A model generated the notes under the pieces. That model did no database searches. It worked only from the letters and a program-made list of their open reading frames with translations, and was not told the DNA's origin. DNA of 22,303 nucleotides from a virus. Position 1 is the first letter of the stretch. Each line of letters begins with the position of its first letter. A program made the translations under genes and the position numbers. This document shows positions 1 to 9,642 of the stretch, one piece after another. The DNA lies in IMG/VR virus record IMGVR_UViG_3300017724_000100, positions 1-22,303 of that record, one strand, 5' to 3'.

Positions 1-260
1 CCAACTGTACTACTTGTTACAGTAGAATCATCACTTGCGACACCATCTGCCCAACCGTGTGCGTTACCGTTCATATCTGTACAATTTGAATCATTGTTGA
101 TAGCACAATACTGAAAGTAGTTGCCACTACCATCTTGAACAACTTCTAAAGTAAGATCGTCACCAACTTGGTTCACATATATTTCATTTGCCATACAAGA
201 TTGTGCATAGAAAAAAGATACGAATAGGACTTTACCTAACTTGGATAATAGTGATTTCAT
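1..260 (-). CDS. Curlin-like secreted repeat protein, 3' end beyond window
   Basis: The ATG at 260 follows a good ribosome binding site (GGAGAAGGAAG). The protein starts with a signal peptide (basic n-region MKSLLSKLGK, hydrophobic core, likely cut after CMA at about residue 24). The mature part opens NEIYVNQVGDDLTLEVVQDG, which matches the opening of the secreted repeat protein at 1313-2035 almost position for position. The Q-x-G spacing resembles curlin (CsgA/CsgB) repeats. Two cysteines lie further on, in YCAINNDSNC. The start overlaps the end of the FecR gene by 29 bases, so the two are probably translationally coupled. The C-terminal part is outside the window, so the number of repeats is unknown. 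Inference: a second amyloid-type subunit exported through the phage CsgG pore. It could instead be another extracellular beta-rich protein. Confidence 0.7.
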   Translation of the reverse strand, partial: MKSLLSKLGKVLFVSFFYAQSCMANEIYVNQVGDDLTLEVVQDGSGNYFQYCAINNDSNCTDMNGNAHGWADGVASDDSTVTSSTV

Positions 261-1353
261 TATTACTTCCTTCTCCAATAGGTATATCGTAGAGTTCTAT
301 TTCATCTTGTTTCAAATTAATTCTGTAGTCGTGGTTCTTACTCAAATTAGCATCAAACACATTATTACCACCATCTCTTCTAAATTTCCAGTTTGTATTG
401 TAATCATATATCTCAACACCTGTATCTGGATTTTTACCTAACGCCACACCATCTTGCATTTTAGTAAATTCATCTCTCATCTGCAACGCAAGTTGTTCAT
501 TAAGAATATCTAAAATATCTGCAAGCAAATCTGCACCAAGCCAATCTAAGTCTAATTCAGTTGACCATGTTGAATCTTTAACATCTAATAATTCGTTAGT
601 TTGAAATGCATCAAACTGAAGAAAATCTATTCCTAAGAAATCTGCAAGTTTCTTCGCTCTTTCAGCTTCATCATCAACTTCTAATTCTATAGGTTTCTTT
701 CGAATTAATAAATTTAAAATACTATTCTCATCCAAATCAAGTATTACTGGTTTAGAAGGTTCTGAGTATGGACTAGGCACAATTGTTGCTTGGAATGCTT
801 GGTTCATTATAACCATACCAACTTCTGAAGCCACTGTAATTTCACCAACAACACAAATACCAAAGTCATTACACGATGGTAGAAGGATAATTGTACTACT
901 ACCAAGTTCATCTATTGTCATAGAAAAATCAGTACCCCTAACACCAACTACGGCGGTAGGAGTCCTGATCTTTATATTTTGTCTACTGTTTTTTGCAATT
1001 TGTCCAGATGCATATCTCATTGTACCAAAAGAGGCCTTCAGAGATAATGAACCTGTCTGAGTATTAGGGTCATATACAAATGAATCAATGATTAACTTTG
1101 AGTGTTCTGTTACATCCACTCTAGTATCATCTATGAATTCAATAGCAGTTCTTCCATTCTTTGTACGAACAGTATCCATTGATTCCATACCGAAACCTTT
1201 GTCTATAGAGTCAAATCCATCTTCTCCACGTTCAATATTAGTAACACCTTTTTGTTCTATAACTTGTCCAATGTTAGCATACGCTGAACTTGTTATTATA
1301 ACAAAAAATATACTAGTCAGACTGCACGATATCAATGTCAAAACTATCACCAT
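232..1353 (-). CDS. Secreted FecR-domain protein
   Basis: A 373-residue protein read from the ATG at 1353; a TTG one codon upstream is less likely. It has a hydrophobic signal segment (about residues 1-26, ending SSAYA) followed by a FecR-type domain (about 27-170). Visible landmarks are the pattern DTVRTKNGRTAIEFIDDTRVDV, broken here as DTVRTKNGRT then AIEFIDDTRV, then a glycine-containing LKASFGTMRYASG segment and the hallmark IRTPTAVVGVRGTDF at about 129-143. The remaining 200 residues are acidic and unrecognised. In bacteria FecR domains occur in anti-sigma regulators and also in exported beta-rich proteins. No sigma factor or TonB receptor gene is adjacent, and a cleavable signal rather than an internal transmembrane helix suggests an exported form. 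It sits between two curlin-like genes and overlaps both, so it probably belongs to the curli-type cassette. Confidence 0.75.
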   Translation of the reverse strand: MVIVLTLISCSLTSIFFVIITSSAYANIGQVIEQKGVTNIERGEDGFDSIDKGFGMESMDTVRTKNGRTAIEFIDDTRVDVTEHSKLIIDSFVYDPNTQTGSLSLKASFGTMRYASGQIAKNSRQNIKIRTPTAVVGVRGTDFSMTIDELGSSTIILLPSCNDFGICVVGEITVASEVGMVIMNQAFQATIVPSPYSEPSKPVILDLDENSILNLLIRKKPIELEVDDEAERAKKLADFLGIDFLQFDAFQTNELLDVKDSTWSTELDLDWLGADLLADILDILNEQLALQMRDEFTKMQDGVALGKNPDTGVEIYDYNTNWKFRRDGGNNVFDANLSKNHDYRINLKQDEIELYDIPIGEGSNNEITIIQVR

Positions 1354-2035
1354 CAATGCTAAGGTCTACAGTCTGGTCTTTAATTCCACTCTGATTAATA
1401 TCAATTGTACCACCACCGCCAGTTACATCTACTTCTATTCCGTGTCCGTGTACTCCATTACCTGTCTGTATTGTTGTTACTTTAACACCTTCATCACTAT
1501 TAGCACTTGTAGTTGCTAATGATGCACTATTATCAATATTAACTGTAAGAGCAGCATAAGTTCCATTTATTGTAGAGTTAATAATATTATTATCTCCATC
1601 AACAACAAAATTAACTACTGAATTTGAAGCGTCAGCTGTCTCTCCAATGTCAAATGAAAAGGCGTTGGTATCGCCTTCTGTTGTAATATTGAGAGTAATA
1701 TCGTCACAATTCCCAGCTGCAGAAGTACTACAATCTAAGTCTACTGTGTTACTAGAACCAGTAAATTCCCAGAGACCAGTATAGTCTGCACCCTTAATTG
1801 TCGCAGTAATTATGTTATAATTACCTTGTTGGGTTATGTCGAAATTCATCCCATCTCCATTAATCACAGCAGCAGTAGTAGCATTGCCTACTTTGTTATC
1901 AGTACCGTCCTGTGTAATGTCTAGGTCTAGATTGTCGCCAACTTGTGTGATATAAATTTCATTTGCTCCAAGTATGGAAGGCAACATCAATGCAGTCATC
2001 ATAATAAAGATTGACCCTACTATATTTTTGGTCAT
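1313..2035 (-). CDS. Curlin-like secreted repeat protein
   Basis: A 240-residue protein with a strong ribosome binding site (AAGGAGAAGAAATG) and a signal peptide likely cut after ILGA (about residue 24). The mature protein is rich in Asp, Asn, Thr and Gly and contains repeated beta-strand units with Q-x-G turns: IYITQVGDNLDLDITQDG near the N-terminus, FDITQQGNYN in the middle, and IDINQSG and FDIDIVQSD at the C-terminus. Curlin subunits of bacteria are built from repeats with conserved Gln, Gly and Asn, so this looks like a distant curlin relative. It begins 9 bases after csgG ends and overlaps the FecR gene by about 40 bases. Inference: a substrate exported by CsgG that forms an extracellular fibre or adhesive layer. 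The repeats are too degenerate for certainty, and a free-standing phage fibre protein is the alternative. Confidence 0.7.
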   Translation of the reverse strand: MTKNIVGSIFIMMTALMLPSILGANEIYITQVGDNLDLDITQDGTDNKVGNATTAAVINGDGMNFDITQQGNYNIITATIKGADYTGLWEFTGSSNTVDLDCSTSAAGNCDDITLNITTEGDTNAFSFDIGETADASNSVVNFVVDGDNNIINSTINGTYAALTVNIDNSASLATTSANSDEGVKVTTIQTGNGVHGHGIEVDVTGGGGTIDINQSGIKDQTVDLSIDGDSFDIDIVQSD

Positions 2036-2044
2036 TTCTTCTCC

Positions 2045-2851
2045 TTATTGTAAGCTTGCGTCTTCGTAACTCCACAAACCTTTTGTTTCGCCCTTTCTTA
2101 TCATATCAATAACTGCTTGGTCGATTGCACATTTAACTGCAACAGAAGTCGGCTCATTTGCGGCCGCACCACTTTCTAATTCAAATGCTTTAGTTCCCAA
2201 ATCGAAGAATCTAAATACATTCAAATCGTCCTTTACACTGGCAATTGTTTTAGTAACATTAGTGGCTAATATTACCTTACCAGAATTCACTGAAACAAGT
2301 CTCATTGAAACTGTTACTTGATCCGTTCTGTAAGAAGTATCACCGCCTACTCCAAAGTAACGCAATCCGTTACCACCGCTGACGATATTGGCATCATAAC
2401 CTACGATACCTCCTTCTAATATTAAACCAGCTAACTTTAAGGGCTTAAGTTCTGGTTTTTTTTCGCCTTTTTCATATTGTTCATATGTGGATTTTGCTAG
2501 TTGTCTTTCTTTAACTAGGTTATTAAGTCCACCTCTTTCAATCACTATAAACCAATCGCCCTTTGAGGCACTTTGTAATGCATCTATAACCCAGGCATCT
2601 GCTCCTTGGGTTACAGCAGAAGATAGTGATGAAAATCTTTCATTAGGTTTTCGTTGTCCTGTTTTATCCTTAAACTCATAAACTGCAATAGTCATTGGAG
2701 GAGCATCAAGTTTTGGTAAATCTTCTAATTTTTCTTGAACACCACTTACAAATTCAGTTGGCGGTAGTACTTCTAATTTATCCTGTACTACTGCTTGTGT
2801 ACATCCTCCCAATAAGCAAGTTGCAATAATAAATATAACAAGATGTTCCAT
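2045..2851 (-). CDS. csgG: Curli secretion pore lipoprotein CsgG
   Basis: A 268-residue homologue of CsgG, the outer-membrane lipoprotein that forms the curli export channel. The ATG at 2851 lies one base after the csgF stop; a TTG at 2863 is a weaker option. The N-terminus is a lipoprotein signal with lipobox LLGGC (Cys17). Conserved family features are IAVYEFKDKTGQRKP, WFIVIERGGLNNLVKERQ, LILEGGIVGYDANIVSGG, GLRYFGVGGDTSYRTDQVTV and VFRFFDLGTKAFELESG, then a late GLW. Length and order match E. coli CsgG (277-residue precursor). By eye, the constriction loop after KP reads NERFSSLSSAV where E. coli has YPASNFSTAV, so the Tyr and Phe ring residues seem replaced. It lies directly downstream of csgF and upstream of curlin-like genes. 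No CsgE gene is visible. Confidence 0.93.
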   Translation of the reverse strand: MEHLVIFIIATCLLGGCTQAVVQDKLEVLPPTEFVSGVQEKLEDLPKLDAPPMTIAVYEFKDKTGQRKPNERFSSLSSAVTQGADAWVIDALQSASKGDWFIVIERGGLNNLVKERQLAKSTYEQYEKGEKKPELKPLKLAGLILEGGIVGYDANIVSGGNGLRYFGVGGDTSYRTDQVTVSMRLVSVNSGKVILATNVTKTIASVKDDLNVFRFFDLGTKAFELESGAAANEPTSVAVKCAIDQAVIDMIRKGETKGLWSYEDASLQ

Positions 2852-2852
2852 A

Positions 2853-3305
2853 CTAAAATCCAAATCCTGTCAATGGAACTACGAGTTCGGTAAATGAACC
2901 ATCTTCTTCAGTAATCTGAACTGTAATGGTGCCTGCTGTTAAATCCTTTTCCCAGTATATGGTTGCACCTTCTAAGTCAGCAGTACCAGATAGAGCACCA
3001 TCATCTTCAAACATACTATCAACTAGATTCTTAGAAATTTGAGCATAAATTCTAGATTCTACGTTTTGAATAAATTTGTTTATAGTTTTATTTGCTTCTT
3101 CTCTTGCTGCTTCTCGATCAGCTGCATCAAGATCATCTTGTAATTTTTCTTTCCTATTATGTTCAATCTGAGCGATTGATAAAAAATGTTGTGACTGTCC
3201 AATTCCACTAAATGATGGACTTCCAAAACTGTGTACTAAATCGCCTGCATAACTAATTGTCGGTATTATTGCTAACAGACTTATTGTTGCTTTTAACGTC
3301 TTCAT
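2853..3305 (-). CDS. csgF: Curli assembly factor CsgF
   Basis: A 150-residue protein (E. coli CsgF is 138). The chosen ATG at 3305 begins MKTLKATISLLAIIPTISYA, a clear signal peptide. Upstream in-frame starts would place charged residues in front of it. The mature N-terminus, DLVHSFGSPSFSGIGQSQHF, matches the CsgF N-terminal segment that inserts into the CsgG barrel (E. coli MTFQFRNPNFGG..). A charged helical stretch follows (about residues 60-100), then a beta-rich tail, ATIYWEKDLTAGTITVQITEEDG, as in CsgF. In bacteria CsgF caps the CsgG pore and couples secretion to nucleation of the fibre. The gene overlaps the end of the upstream holin-like gene by about 50 bases and ends one base before csgG. 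Confidence 0.88.
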   Translation of the reverse strand: MKTLKATISLLAIIPTISYAGDLVHSFGSPSFSGIGQSQHFLSIAQIEHNRKEKLQDDLDAADREAAREEANKTINKFIQNVESRIYAQISKNLVDSMFEDDGALSGTADLEGATIYWEKDLTAGTITVQITEEDGSFTELVVPLTGFGF

Positions 3306-3594
3306 GTCTAGATCCATATCTTTGTAATATTTCTTCAATATCCCCATCTATAGGTTTACCTTCTTTATCATAATGTTCTAATAGCATAGAGAGCTTCATA
3401 TTGAGTCGTATCATATCATTATCAAGCATTCTTACTCTGTCAACCAGTGCAATAAGTGTACCCATTGTTTGTCCTATGATTGGATCAATTGTCTCTGTAA
3501 CCCATTTCCATATGAAGTATACAAAATATCCAAGACCCATCGCTGCTATAATAGGGAAACCATAGTCTTTTATTGCATTGGTAAGTTCGTCCAA
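3253..3594 (-). CDS. Small membrane protein, holin-like (copy 2)
   Basis: A 113-residue protein with one strong transmembrane segment near the N-terminus (about 12-32, GFPIIAAMGLGYFVYFIWKWV). An amphipathic, coiled-coil-prone helix (about 40-75) follows, then a hydrophilic C-terminus. The architecture and many positions match the upstream 92-residue protein, so the two are probably diverged duplicates. One N-terminal helix plus a coiled coil resembles BhlA/XhlA-type holin families, but no family is assigned with confidence. The ribosome binding site is TAGGAGATAAATTTGGATG. It lies between late promoters and csgF, which suggests a late envelope role: inner-membrane permeabilisation or support of the CsgG machinery. 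Confidence 0.6.
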   Translation of the reverse strand: MDELTNAIKDYGFPIIAAMGLGYFVYFIWKWVTETIDPIIGQTMGTLIALVDRVRMLDNDMIRLNMKLSMLLEHYDKEGKPIDGDIEEILQRYGSRHEDVKSNNKSVSNNTDN

Positions 3595-6367: not shown

Positions 6368-6583
6368 TCACCCTTTTCGGCGTGGCCGAAATGGCACCTT
6401 AGTAGAGTTATCTTCTAACCTTTTAGATAGAATACCACAACGCTTCACTAACTCTGCGTTATCGTATTCCAAAGATTTAACTCGTTCACCTGTTTCCACA
6501 AGCTTTGCACGATAAAAATCTCGTTCTCTAGCAAGTTCATTCGATTCGTTTGAACGAACTGGATCTGCTGTTTGCACTTCCAT
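6368..6583 (-). CDS. Small coiled-coil protein, unknown
   Basis: A 71-residue charged protein. Residues 15-58 have heptad-like spacing of Leu and Val (ELARERDFYRAKLVETGERVKSLEYDNAELV) predicting a coiled coil. The C-terminus is very basic (PFRPRRKG). Its ATG overlaps the last base of the gp59 gene, indicating translational coupling with the helicase loader. No family is recognised. A small replication accessory that binds protein or nucleic acid through the basic tail is possible. Confidence 0.6.
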   Translation of the reverse strand: MEVQTADPVRSNESNELARERDFYRAKLVETGERVKSLEYDNAELVKRCGILSKRLEDNSTKVPFRPRRKG

Positions 6584-7164
6584 TAGAATGTCTCCCTTAT
6601 CAACTGGAGCAGTTTCGTTTTACATTTCTCTCTATCATAAGAAAGGAATGCGGCGTACTTGACGATTAAACGTCTATTATCTGGCCATACTAAGTCATCA
6701 CTTAACCCTTTATCAAATCGTTTCACATAATGCAGTAACCCTTGTAGAATCACTGCGGTTTCGATATTGATTCTCTTAGCGAGAATGTTCTTTAATAATA
6801 CAGGATGTTTACCAGTTTGTAAAGAGAAAATTGAATCAAAATCCTCTACTTGTGAAAATAAAAAACTCATGTCATTTATGAAGTTATAGGTCAATGCCTG
6901 TTTGTACTTCACATATTGATTGTAATTATCTTCACTAAAATCACCTAACCATCCTTTAGGCGACTTTACAAAGTTTGCAATATAATACTCTAGTGTCTTA
7001 TCGTCATACTTCTTAGCTACACGAGCAAAGAAAAATCTATCCCTTCTTTTTAAGAATGATGCCTTTGTTGCAGAAGTCTTCCCACCATATCTTGTATAGT
7101 CGTAATTAGTCGTAAAATGCAACTTGAGACCAAGGTACATTTGGTAGGACTCCCATGCTTCCAT
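6583..7164 (-). CDS. 59: Replicative helicase loader gp59
   Basis: A 193-residue homologue of T4 gp59 (217 residues), which loads the gp41 helicase on gp32-coated DNA at forks. The best match is KRRDRFFFARVAKKYDDKTLEYYIANFVKSPKGWLGDFS (about residues 39-77) against T4 KRRDKYFFQKLSEKYKLK..FISNLVANQDAWIGDIS. A helical C-terminal domain follows, with LLKNILAKRINIETAVILQGLLHYV. It lies between gp33 and gp32 on the same strand, the T4 gene order. The ribosome binding site is AAGGAGTGATCCAATG. The N-terminus is a little shorter than in T4. Confidence 0.88.
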   Translation of the reverse strand: MEAWESYQMYLGLKLHFTTNYDYTRYGGKTSATKASFLKRRDRFFFARVAKKYDDKTLEYYIANFVKSPKGWLGDFSEDNYNQYVKYKQALTYNFINDMSFLFSQVEDFDSIFSLQTGKHPVLLKNILAKRINIETAVILQGLLHYVKRFDKGLSDDLVWPDNRRLIVKYAAFLSYDREKCKTKLLQLIRETF

Positions 7165-7175
7165 TGGATCACTCC

Positions 7176-7415
7176 TTAGATTGGTAGGGTTGCTACTCTA
7201 GGCAAGAAGTTTAATTCTCTTGCATCTGCTTCAATTTTTTCTTTAAGTGGTCTTGAGATGAGCGGTGCAATTGCATCAGGCTCCATCTGATTTTTTTCAC
7301 AATAATCTAATATAGCATCCATGTATGTAGTAACACCACCACCATTAGCAACGACTTTTTCAATTTTGATTGCAAACTTCTTTGGTGTCATAACTGCAAT
7401 TTCTTCTAGATTCAT
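7176..7415 (-). CDS. 33: Late transcription co-activator gp33
   Basis: A 79-residue protein matching the conserved part of T4 gp33 (112 residues), the RNA-polymerase-binding co-activator that lets the sliding clamp activate late promoters with gp55. The aligned stretch is TTYMDAILDYCEKNQMEPDAIAPLISRPLKEKIEADARELNFLP here, read as residues about 29-72. T4 has MSYLEATTAFLEENSIPE..FIPSGIIEKIQSEAIDENLLRP. Its position directly upstream of gp59 is the T4 order. The N-terminal arm of T4 gp33 is shorter here. Its presence supports reading the TATAAATA boxes in this window as late promoters. Confidence 0.8.
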   Translation of the reverse strand: MNLEEIAVMTPKKFAIKIEKVVANGGGVTTYMDAILDYCEKNQMEPDAIAPLISRPLKEKIEADARELNFLPRVATLPI

Positions 7416-8224: not shown

Positions 8225-8254
8225 TGTCTATCCTTCCCATAATTAAGTAGTAGG

Positions 8255-8550
8255 TTATTCTGTTACTAGGAAACCTACCGAAACCCTATCCAATCACGCT
8301 GCTAGAGCGAAACCTTGAGGTGCAAAATTATCGTTTGCGTTTAGTTTTGTTAGACTATCAGGCGTCTATCCCACAGTTCTACTCTTTCCTATTCCTATCA
8401 GTCGATCCTAGTTCGCCCCCATCAAAAATGCATTAACTTCGACATCCCCTTAGGGCCATCTATGTTCTGCAAAACTTCCTATTGCAGTAGGACGTAATGC
8501 ACTTTTGGTGGAGGCGTTGGGTACTGCCCCCAAGTCCTGTCTAGTATTCA
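8255..8550 (-). ncRNA. ssrA: Two-piece (permuted) alphaproteobacterial-type tmRNA
   Basis: tmRNA rescues stalled ribosomes and adds a degradation tag. The order here is the circularly permuted one of alphaproteobacteria: acceptor piece first, then coding piece. The acceptor piece holds a T arm (8517-8533, TTGGG-GGCAGTA-CCCAA), the 3' acceptor strand CGCCTCC (8510-8516) and an encoded terminal CCA at 8506-8508. The coding piece starts at 8420 with GGGGGCG, which pairs over 7 bp with that strand (one G-U), and continues AACTAGGATCGAC. The tag reading frame starts at 8338 after AACTAAAC: ANDNFAPQGFALAA then TGA (8294-8296). The intervening segment 8421-8505 is closed by about 12 bp (8495-8506 with 8424-8435), as expected for a precursor loop to be excised. 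The outer ends are approximate. Confidence 0.92.
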
Positions 8551-8573
8551 GATTGTATCAACAAACTGTATAT

Positions 8574-8604
8574 TATTTATACCATAGTAATGTTTGATTG
8601 TCAA
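8574..8604 (-). promoter_or_regulatory. tmRNA promoter, sigma70-type overlapping a late box
   Basis: TTGACA (8599-8604), 17 bases, TATAAA (8576-8581) on the minus strand. The -10 is also part of an exact TATAAATA (8574-8581), the T4-type late element. The same start could therefore be used early by host sigma and late by phage sigma. Transcription would begin near 8568, just before the acceptor piece. Confidence 0.75.
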
Positions 8605-8614
8605 TAACTTTTTA

Positions 8615-8947
8615 TTATAAATCAACTCCAAGTGTTCTAAGTTTGTCAAAACCTCTACCTGTTGCAAGAATACAACCAAGTCCTTTATCTTTTGAAAACT
8701 CTAGTACACTCCATGACTTTGTTGATAACCCTACCGAAATAACTAATATAGTTTCGATATATGTGCCATCATTCTTTTGAGTTATCCCATTCATAGATAA
8801 GAATGGAACTTCTCCGAAATTTTTAGTAATCTCAACTAATTCTTGTGCAGGGCCACACTGGACAGGTTTTTGTGCCCAGAATGGTTCTGCTGAAACTGCA
8901 CTACTAAGCAGTAACGCTGGTAGTATTGATAACATTACTTTCTTCAT
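8615..8947 (-). CDS. Secreted protein, unknown
   Basis: A 110-residue protein from the ATG at 8947. It has a classical signal peptide (MKKVMLSILPALLLSSAVSA, cut about residue 20). The mature domain of about 90 residues has two cysteines (PVQCGPAQ and LGCILATG) that could form a disulfide in the periplasm. Visible segments are YIETILVISVGLSTKSWSVL, beta-rich, and GRGFDKLRTLGVDL at the end. It begins inside the 3' end of the nuclease gene (44-base overlap). I do not recognise the family. Export implies an envelope role. Confidence 0.65.
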   Translation of the reverse strand: MKKVMLSILPALLLSSAVSAEPFWAQKPVQCGPAQELVEITKNFGEVPFLSMNGITQKNDGTYIETILVISVGLSTKSWSVLEFSKDKGLGCILATGRGFDKLRTLGVDL

Positions 8948-9614
8948 TGTCTTTTTCCCATTGTTCTGTGAACATATCAATGGTTTCTACGAGATGAGGC
9001 AGATATTCATGCTTCTCTTTTACAAACTCTTGAACTAGTCCATCTTCTGTGACAACAAGAATAACAATCTGATTGATTTCAATTCCTGTTCTCTCTTCAA
9101 ACATTTCTGCATATGCAGATGCTTGCATGTAGTACTCAAAATTATAATCATCCTTTCGTTCAGAACGAGAGGTTTTGAAATCAATAATGGATGGTACACC
9201 ATTCCACTCTGCGATACAGTCCACACGGCCTGCAACACGATACTTCTCACTCCACAATCCACACTCTTGTGCGAATATATTATTTATGGACTTCTCCAAA
9301 GTTGGTTTTAGTTGTGAGAACAAACACCAAGGTAAGAATTTCTGTTCATCTTTGACAACCTCTTTATTATTTAAGAAGTCTTCACACATATGGTGAACAG
9401 CAGTTCCACGGCCTGCAGCACTACGCATGATATGATTTGCAACATCATTACCAACACGTTCACGCCACTTTCGTAGTCCTTCTTTCTTTTCCTTACGAAC
9501 ACCTAACACTGTTGTGATAGATGGATAGAACCCTGTAGGCGTATCATAGAAACGCTTGCGGTCTATATTTTTAGTAGATACCTCTGGGATATCAATTGGA
9601 TTATGTATAAACAT
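8904..9614 (-). CDS. PD-(D/E)XK exonuclease, MGME1/RecB-like
   Basis: A 236-residue nuclease. The ATG at 9614 has AGGAAG at ideal spacing; one at 9626 would leave only a very short leader. Motifs: GRGTAVHHMCEDFL (His in the RecB-type N-terminal motif, about residue 70), GRVDCIAEWNGVPSIIDFKTSR (catalytic Asp ... Asp-x-Lys, about 128-149) and YYMQASAYAEMF (the QxxxY motif). The pattern is close to mitochondrial MGME1 and related phage nucleases, which trim single-stranded ends. It follows phoH and has its own promoter (9643-9671). It probably works in phage DNA processing or recombination. Confidence 0.88.
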   Translation of the reverse strand: MFIHNPIDIPEVSTKNIDRKRFYDTPTGFYPSITTVLGVRKEKKEGLRKWRERVGNDVANHIMRSAAGRGTAVHHMCEDFLNNKEVVKDEQKFLPWCLFSQLKPTLEKSINNIFAQECGLWSEKYRVAGRVDCIAEWNGVPSIIDFKTSRSERKDDYNFEYYMQASAYAEMFEERTGIEINQIVILVVTEDGLVQEFVKEKHEYLPHLVETIDMFTEQWEKDNEESNVINTTSVTA

Positions 9615-9642
9615 ATTCTTCCTCATTTTATATTGTTACTGT

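Follow-up and report, generated by a model that had tools for sequence, protein, structure and literature searches.

A probable two-piece, alpha-type tmRNA beside the late-transcription coactivator gene gp33 of marine T4-like phages

Phages are known to encode tmRNA, and a 2025 paper on the tmRNA database includes 79 bacteriophage tmRNA sequences (PMC11915505). For Methylophilales phage Melnitz, Buchholz et al. (2022) describe a two-piece ssrA, and they report that 17 of 47 related contigs have a permuted tmRNA. They propose that it serves to keep the hijacked translation machinery running or to tag host proteins (PMC9004378). Since this paper reports a two-piece tmRNA of the alpha type in this group of phages, the tmRNA that we analyze here is not new in kind, and an earlier note on this DNA implied more novelty than there is, much the same function having been proposed for Melnitz (PMC9004378). 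The two-piece plan is shared with alphaproteobacterial ssrA (RF01849, e.g., that of Caulobacter), as are a G3-U70 pair, a GGCRGUA-type T loop, and a tag that starts with ANDN. Mycobacteriophages (e.g., cluster C1), which are unrelated to the phage studied here, also encode a tmRNA, alongside phage tRNAs, and it is recorded simply as tmRNA. The mycobacteriophage molecule is the standard one-piece form. What appears to be new, as far as we found, is 1) a copy in Pelagibacter phage HTVC008M, 2) the exonuclease-gp33/gp59 locus of the gene in widely diverged T4-like phages, 3) a phage lineage of this RNA, 4) a fused promoter, and 5) compensatory and synonymous conservation.

The window, which is the whole stretch of 22,303 nucleotides that was analyzed, is a 22.3-kb viral fragment. 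It contains T4-like genes encoding gp32, gp59, gp33, PhoH, RNase H, the small subunit of ribonucleotide reductase, and a segE-type endonuclease, and it also encodes ThyX, CsgG, CsgF, and a curlin-repeat-like protein. The closest isolate is Melnitz (gp32 81%, CsgG 78%, and gp59 73%), followed by HTVC008M (gp32 59% and CsgG 53%). Judged by its sequence, this fragment comes from a marine T4-like myophage, with Melnitz as its nearest isolate. Positions 232-3347 hold a curli-like set that Melnitz and HTVC008M also have, composed of CsgF, CsgG, the curlin-repeat-like protein, and a FecR-domain protein. At 7569-7499, directly after a tRNA-Gly(TCC) gene at 7651-7578, there is another gene resembling tRNA-Gly (anticodon region TTTCCAA), with a D loop without GG and a T loop that is GTGCATTACC and not TTCRA, which scores 47.9 bits in Rfam and is missed by ARAGORN. 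This gene may have arisen by duplication and then decayed, or it may encode a tRNA without an elbow.

The upstream neighbor of the tmRNA gene is a PD-(D/E)XK exonuclease gene (phrog_298, 8904..9626, minus strand), which stands in place of the DexA gene of cyanophage S-P4. Its downstream neighbors encode the late-transcription coactivator gp33 (7176..7415, minus strand; PF16805 with 3.5e-22, phrog_254) and the helicase loader gp59 (6583..7164, minus strand; PF08993/PF08994, phrog_269). The order PhoH - exonuclease - tmRNA - gp33 - gp59 - (thyX) - gp32, all on one strand, is found in dozens of viral contigs, in which gp33 displays about 34-87% identity to that of the window. There are contigs in which the tmRNA is located away from gp33 (e.g., L296 and L298), and one contig (L020) covers the exonuclease-gp33 interval with no tmRNA match in it. 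The exonuclease gene of S-P4, which is annotated as DexA, runs into gp33 and leaves no room for a tmRNA, so the slot would be either an insertion in the Melnitz/HTVC008M-like group or a loss in S-P4. In Melnitz (MZ577095), SsrA is the same alpha-type permuted tmRNA, with the same TTGACA/TATAAATA promoter and the same locus (PhoH - exonuclease - tmRNA - gp33 - gp59 - thyX - gp32 - csgF - csgG). The two RNAs show 78% identity over the 60% aligned by BLAST, and their tags differ (ANDNYVPVDYALAA in Melnitz, ANDNFAPQGFALAA in the window). We also detected an unannotated permuted alpha-type tmRNA at the same locus in HTVC008M (KC465899, ~145103-145414, corresponding to L394 6104-6415), which scores 83.8 bits with the alpha model and 90.6 bits with the permuted model and partly overlaps an annotated hypothetical protein. 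It differs from the window tmRNA by its tag (ANFNEYALAA) and by its long branch in the tree described below. We found no report of this gene in the literature, and the main-text passages of PMC9004378 that name HTVC008M contain no tmRNA for it.

The earlier note had placed a phage-encoded permuted tmRNA at 8255-8604 and suggested a covariance search with the alpha-tmRNA model. When the window was searched using cmscan, minus-strand 8608-8249 matched RF01849 (alpha_tmRNA) over the complete model (1-355), with a score of 109 bits against a cutoff of 50 and an E value of 2.8e-29. RF04321 (tmRNA_permuted) matched 8567-8294 on the minus strand (101.7 bits, cutoff 47), and ARAGORN predicted a permuted tmRNA at 8600-8203 with the tag ANDNFAPQGFALAA*. 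No match to RF01850, the beta-type permuted tmRNA, was reported in the window, the best match of the clan being RF01849. The tmRNA described in the earlier note is therefore real, and the proposed coordinates are correct within a few bases, the gene being on the minus strand.

In transcript order, the RNA starts with the acceptor piece (8506..8570, minus strand; RF01849, RF04321, and ARAGORN), which has a putative 5' end and terminates in an encoded CCA (8508-8506). This piece contains the 5' strand of a distal inter-piece helix (TACAGTTT, 8563..8570, minus strand), a T arm TTGGG-GGCAGTA-CCCAA in which all pairs are formed (8517..8533, minus strand), and the 3' acceptor strand CGCCTCC (8516-8510) with U70, which together with the discriminator A73 occupies 8509..8516 (minus strand). 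Then comes an 85-nt intervening segment (8421..8505, minus strand), presumably removed on maturation, which folds as a long closing stem continuous with the acceptor stem. The folding energy of the acceptor stem plus intervening loop is -41.7 kcal/mol, and folding of the whole RNA gives z = -2.4. The coding (mRNA-like) piece (8249..8420, minus strand; RF01849 to model end 355) starts at G1 with GGGGGCG (8420-8414), with which CGCCTCC pairs fully, including G3-U70, the alanine identity pair. Further along are 1) the 3' strand of the distal helix (GAACTGTG, 8372..8379, minus strand), which pairs with 8563-8570, 2) the tag frame ANDNFAPQGFALAA-stop, with GCA as resume codon and TGA as stop (8294..8338, minus strand; ARAGORN), and 3) a terminal hairpin GTAGGTT...AACCTAC (8250..8278, minus strand), which lies inside the RF01849 match and shows compensatory changes in the alignment of its relatives. 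All of the parts described in the earlier note were therefore found, i.e., an acceptor piece encoded 5' of a coding piece with which it pairs, a stem closing the loop between them, and a tag frame with its stop at 8338-8294. Considering its intact tRNA-like domain, inter-piece helix, ALAA-ending tag frame, promoter motifs, and conserved locus, this phage gene most probably encodes a working tmRNA of the alpha type, in the permuted two-piece form.

Conservation of this RNA was assessed in a set of phage tmRNAs, among the matches listed, that came mostly from a scan with a pattern that fits just 4 of 54 bacterial copies. In 73 phage copies among the matches listed, the first two pairs of the T arm occur as all four Watson-Crick types with zero mismatches, pairs 5 and 6 of the acceptor stem show compensatory changes among the phage copies listed, and G3-U70 and A73 are present in 73/73 of the copies with both pieces located, the pair types being the unbiased part of this evidence because the finder demanded most pairs, with CCA a further search requirement. 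Of 72 intervening loops from phages among the matches listed, 67 are closed by a terminal stem with 7 pairs or more, and the mean is 11.5 pairs versus 3.8 in shuffled sequences. The distal helix covaries across phages, since at least 6 Watson-Crick pairs are formed with the own partner in 60% versus 9% with the partners of other phages (permutation p = 1e-4). In the tag, the final two codons specify alanine in 86/86 phage tags among the matches listed, and all four alanine codons are used. Judged from these patterns, structure conservation is far beyond chance, and the covariation together with synonymous change of alanine codons speaks for an RNA that works in two pieces and for translation of its tag. 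On the same two patterns, we rejected a decayed gene.

The proposal in the earlier note that the gene has its own promoter finds sequence support in TTGACA-N17-TATAAATA (8604-8574). The -35 box TTGACA (8599..8604, minus strand) is 17 nt before TATAAATA (8574..8581, minus strand), a late-promoter motif of the T4-like kind that can also be read as an extended -10 (TGGTATAAA). Among the matches listed, TATAAATA is found 46-49 nt before the T arm in 36 of the 69 phage tmRNAs having enough upstream sequence to be counted, compared to 0/42 bacterial tmRNAs, and the -35 box is conserved in 34 of these 36. About half of the phage tmRNAs listed thus display TTGA[C/T]-N16-18-TATAAATA, a sigma70 -35 box fused with a T4 late-promoter motif. 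TTGA[C/T] at 16-18 nt accompanies 32/34 distinct tmRNA TATAAATA sites versus 14/118 other sites in the same loci (Fisher p = 1.4e-19), and T4-like genes are present on the same contig for 31/36 tmRNAs with the TATAAATA motif versus 14/33 without it (p = 3e-4), p values that overstate the evidence since the sequences are related and not independent. The HTVC008M tmRNA is without a TATAAATA promoter. An early promoter was placed before the Melnitz tmRNA by its authors (PMC9004378). The simplest reading is that the promoter would be used by host sigma70 early and by the phage late sigma/gp33 machinery later, a dual use suggested by the motif fusion itself.

How might such an RNA serve the phage? 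The earlier note suggested that the virus supplies its own ribosome-rescue and tagging RNA, and this would fit the sequence. A broader reading, to which we give slightly less than even odds, is that marine T4-like phages keep an old, vertically inherited tmRNA at a fixed gp33-adjacent slot, under a fused early/late promoter, which provides rescue and a phage-specific degradation tag throughout infection. In the explanation that we favor, that of a functional tmRNA, early transcription would be by host RNA polymerase from TTGACA and the extended -10, and later transcription by phage-modified polymerase (gp55/gp33 type) from the overlapping TATAAATA. The 85-nt loop would be removed by host RNase P and other tRNA-processing enzymes, with the two RNAs staying base-paired, and charging would be by host AlaRS via G3-U70. 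Where ribosomes have stalled on mRNAs that broke in the course of infection, host SmpB and EF-Tu would then deliver the tmRNA. Host SmpB is presumably used, since neither the complete Melnitz genome nor 30 other phage records yielded an SmpB. The nascent chain would receive the tag (A)ANDNFAPQGFALAA and be destroyed by ClpXP-type proteases, while the ribosome would go back to the pool. The likely benefit would be that ribosomes are kept available during the decay of host and phage mRNAs. Escherichia coli tmRNA is stable through T4 infection, during which host tRNAs are degraded (PMC9697503), and this persistence is consistent with infected cells needing capacity for rescue. Since the host has its own tmRNA, the benefit of a phage copy is not obvious.

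One alternative, which we regard as unlikely, is that trans-translation works but that the main gain lies in displacing the host tmRNA and in a phage-specific tag of different fate, whose faster, slower, or adaptor-dependent degradation would change protein turnover beyond any added rescue capacity. It draws on the tags, which among the matches listed are mostly 14 residues long (56/86), end in YALAA or FALAA in 63 of 86 cases, and have middles that vary freely, up to 31 residues. In contrast, 29 of the 54 alphaproteobacterial tags sampled are 12 residues long, and most are unlike the phage tags. In addition, the exact ANDNFAPQG coding pattern is absent from every bacterial species genome scanned. 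However, the tag ends involved in ribosome resumption and ClpXP-type recognition are ordinary. In five phages (L235, L262, L271, L275, and L292), the tag reaches 29-31 residues, still begins with ANDN and ends with [FY]ALAA, and has a long middle that is partly shared among them (e.g., VNEDFALAA). Short tags (e.g., ANDNTFALAA) were considered as a beta-type replacement in the same slot, and this was rejected because L083 scores as alpha-type. For the likely host, OM43 (Methylophilales), a beta-type tmRNA was sought by sampling the classes of two genomes, which gave one or two matches of the beta type, none of them known to come from OM43. A contig in a MAG labeled Alteromonadales (L174 / L392) contains a beta-type permuted tmRNA (139 bits) with the tag ANDSTYALAA, which is shared by a phage relative (L086) whose reported best clan match is alpha-type, with 69 bits. 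A tag would be needless, on the other hand, if the RNA were a decoy that occupied SmpB, AlaRS, or ribosomes but stopped short of tagging, thereby inhibiting host trans-translation. The tag-less tmRNA of mycobacteriophage DS6A offers a precedent (PMC11915505), and the phage is without its own SmpB, but the intact tag frame, whose end is kept via synonymous codons in the 86 phage copies listed, makes this highly improbable.

Downstream of the tmRNA, Melnitz has a glutamine riboswitch, whereas the window has no RF01739 match over the cutoff. In Melnitz and relatives, this riboswitch lies 3' of the tmRNA and before the gp33 operon (L172 6422-6470, L004 778-828, and L083 1784-1832). It was reported as controlling the Melnitz tmRNA, without being a defining feature of the group (PMC9004378). 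Its position is more naturally that of a leader of the downstream genes. One could ask whether the structured RNA serves the gp33 transcript mainly as its 5' leader or as an element for its processing, with a tmRNA likeness that is inherited but unused. The tmRNA is indeed just upstream of gp33 in diverse phages, in Melnitz-type phages the riboswitch comes directly after it, and no terminator-like site was found behind it. Nevertheless, the tag frame, G3-U70, and CCA would be needless in a leader, and phages such as L296 and L298 have the tmRNA away from gp33, which leaves very little probability for this possibility.

In a tree of 117 tmRNAs, which is unrooted and with small bacterial sampling, one branch divides 76 phage-type copies, among the matches listed and including three from contigs of a bacterial metagenome bin, from 41 alphaproteobacterial copies (SH-aLRT 98). 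Three copies without the scan pattern (L057, L084, and L087), and that of HTVC008M, which was found without it, are still placed with the phages. Divergence of the tmRNA tracks that of gp33, the exonuclease, and PhoH (Spearman 0.63-0.68, Mantel p = 0.001), while its relation to that of gp59, gp32, and ThyX is weaker. Apart from being on one side of the tree, phage copies differ from alphaproteobacterial ssrA by their mostly 14-residue tags, by the fused promoter in about half of them, and by the median length of their intervening loop (80 nt in phage copies listed versus 22.5 nt). The alphaproteobacterial form proposed in the earlier note is upheld by RF01849, and the likeness to the Caulobacter tag fits the family, yet none of the 41 alphaproteobacterial tmRNAs groups with the phage copies. 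A MAG labeled Rhodobacteraceae (Water_Bin34; L173 and L175-L178) contains one bacterial-type and several phage-type permuted tmRNAs, and this mixture suggests that the bin probably contains several phage contigs. Two genomes that we take to be SAR11, as recognized solely through a 16S probe, have the tag ANESYALAA, and the one included in the tree is among the bacteria. A SAR11-related origin and recent sharing were inferred for the Melnitz tmRNA in PMC9004378, which is not supported in this sample, and recent host capture is contradicted by the tree and by co-divergence with phage genes. Even though integration at bacterial tmRNA genes is common (PMC9004378), the idea of a recently acquired host tmRNA (e.g., from an attachment site) that is useless to the phage has almost no probability left, being already strongly contradicted, at the level of sequence, by the tree, the same locus in diverged phages, co-divergence, covariation and synonymous conservation, a phage-type promoter, and the lack of an integrase among the annotated window genes.

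Taken together, these findings argue against the Melnitz tmRNA being a recent gift from SAR11. They turn scattered annotation into a testable statement, namely that phages have a tmRNA lineage of their own, at a fixed locus and with a conserved compound promoter and degradation tag, and the isolates Melnitz or HTVC008M can now be asked about the timing of the RNA, its cutting in two, and the proteins that are tagged. If the broader reading given above is true, the tmRNA would belong permanently to the programme by which the phage takes over its host, instead of being a gene borrowed from that host.
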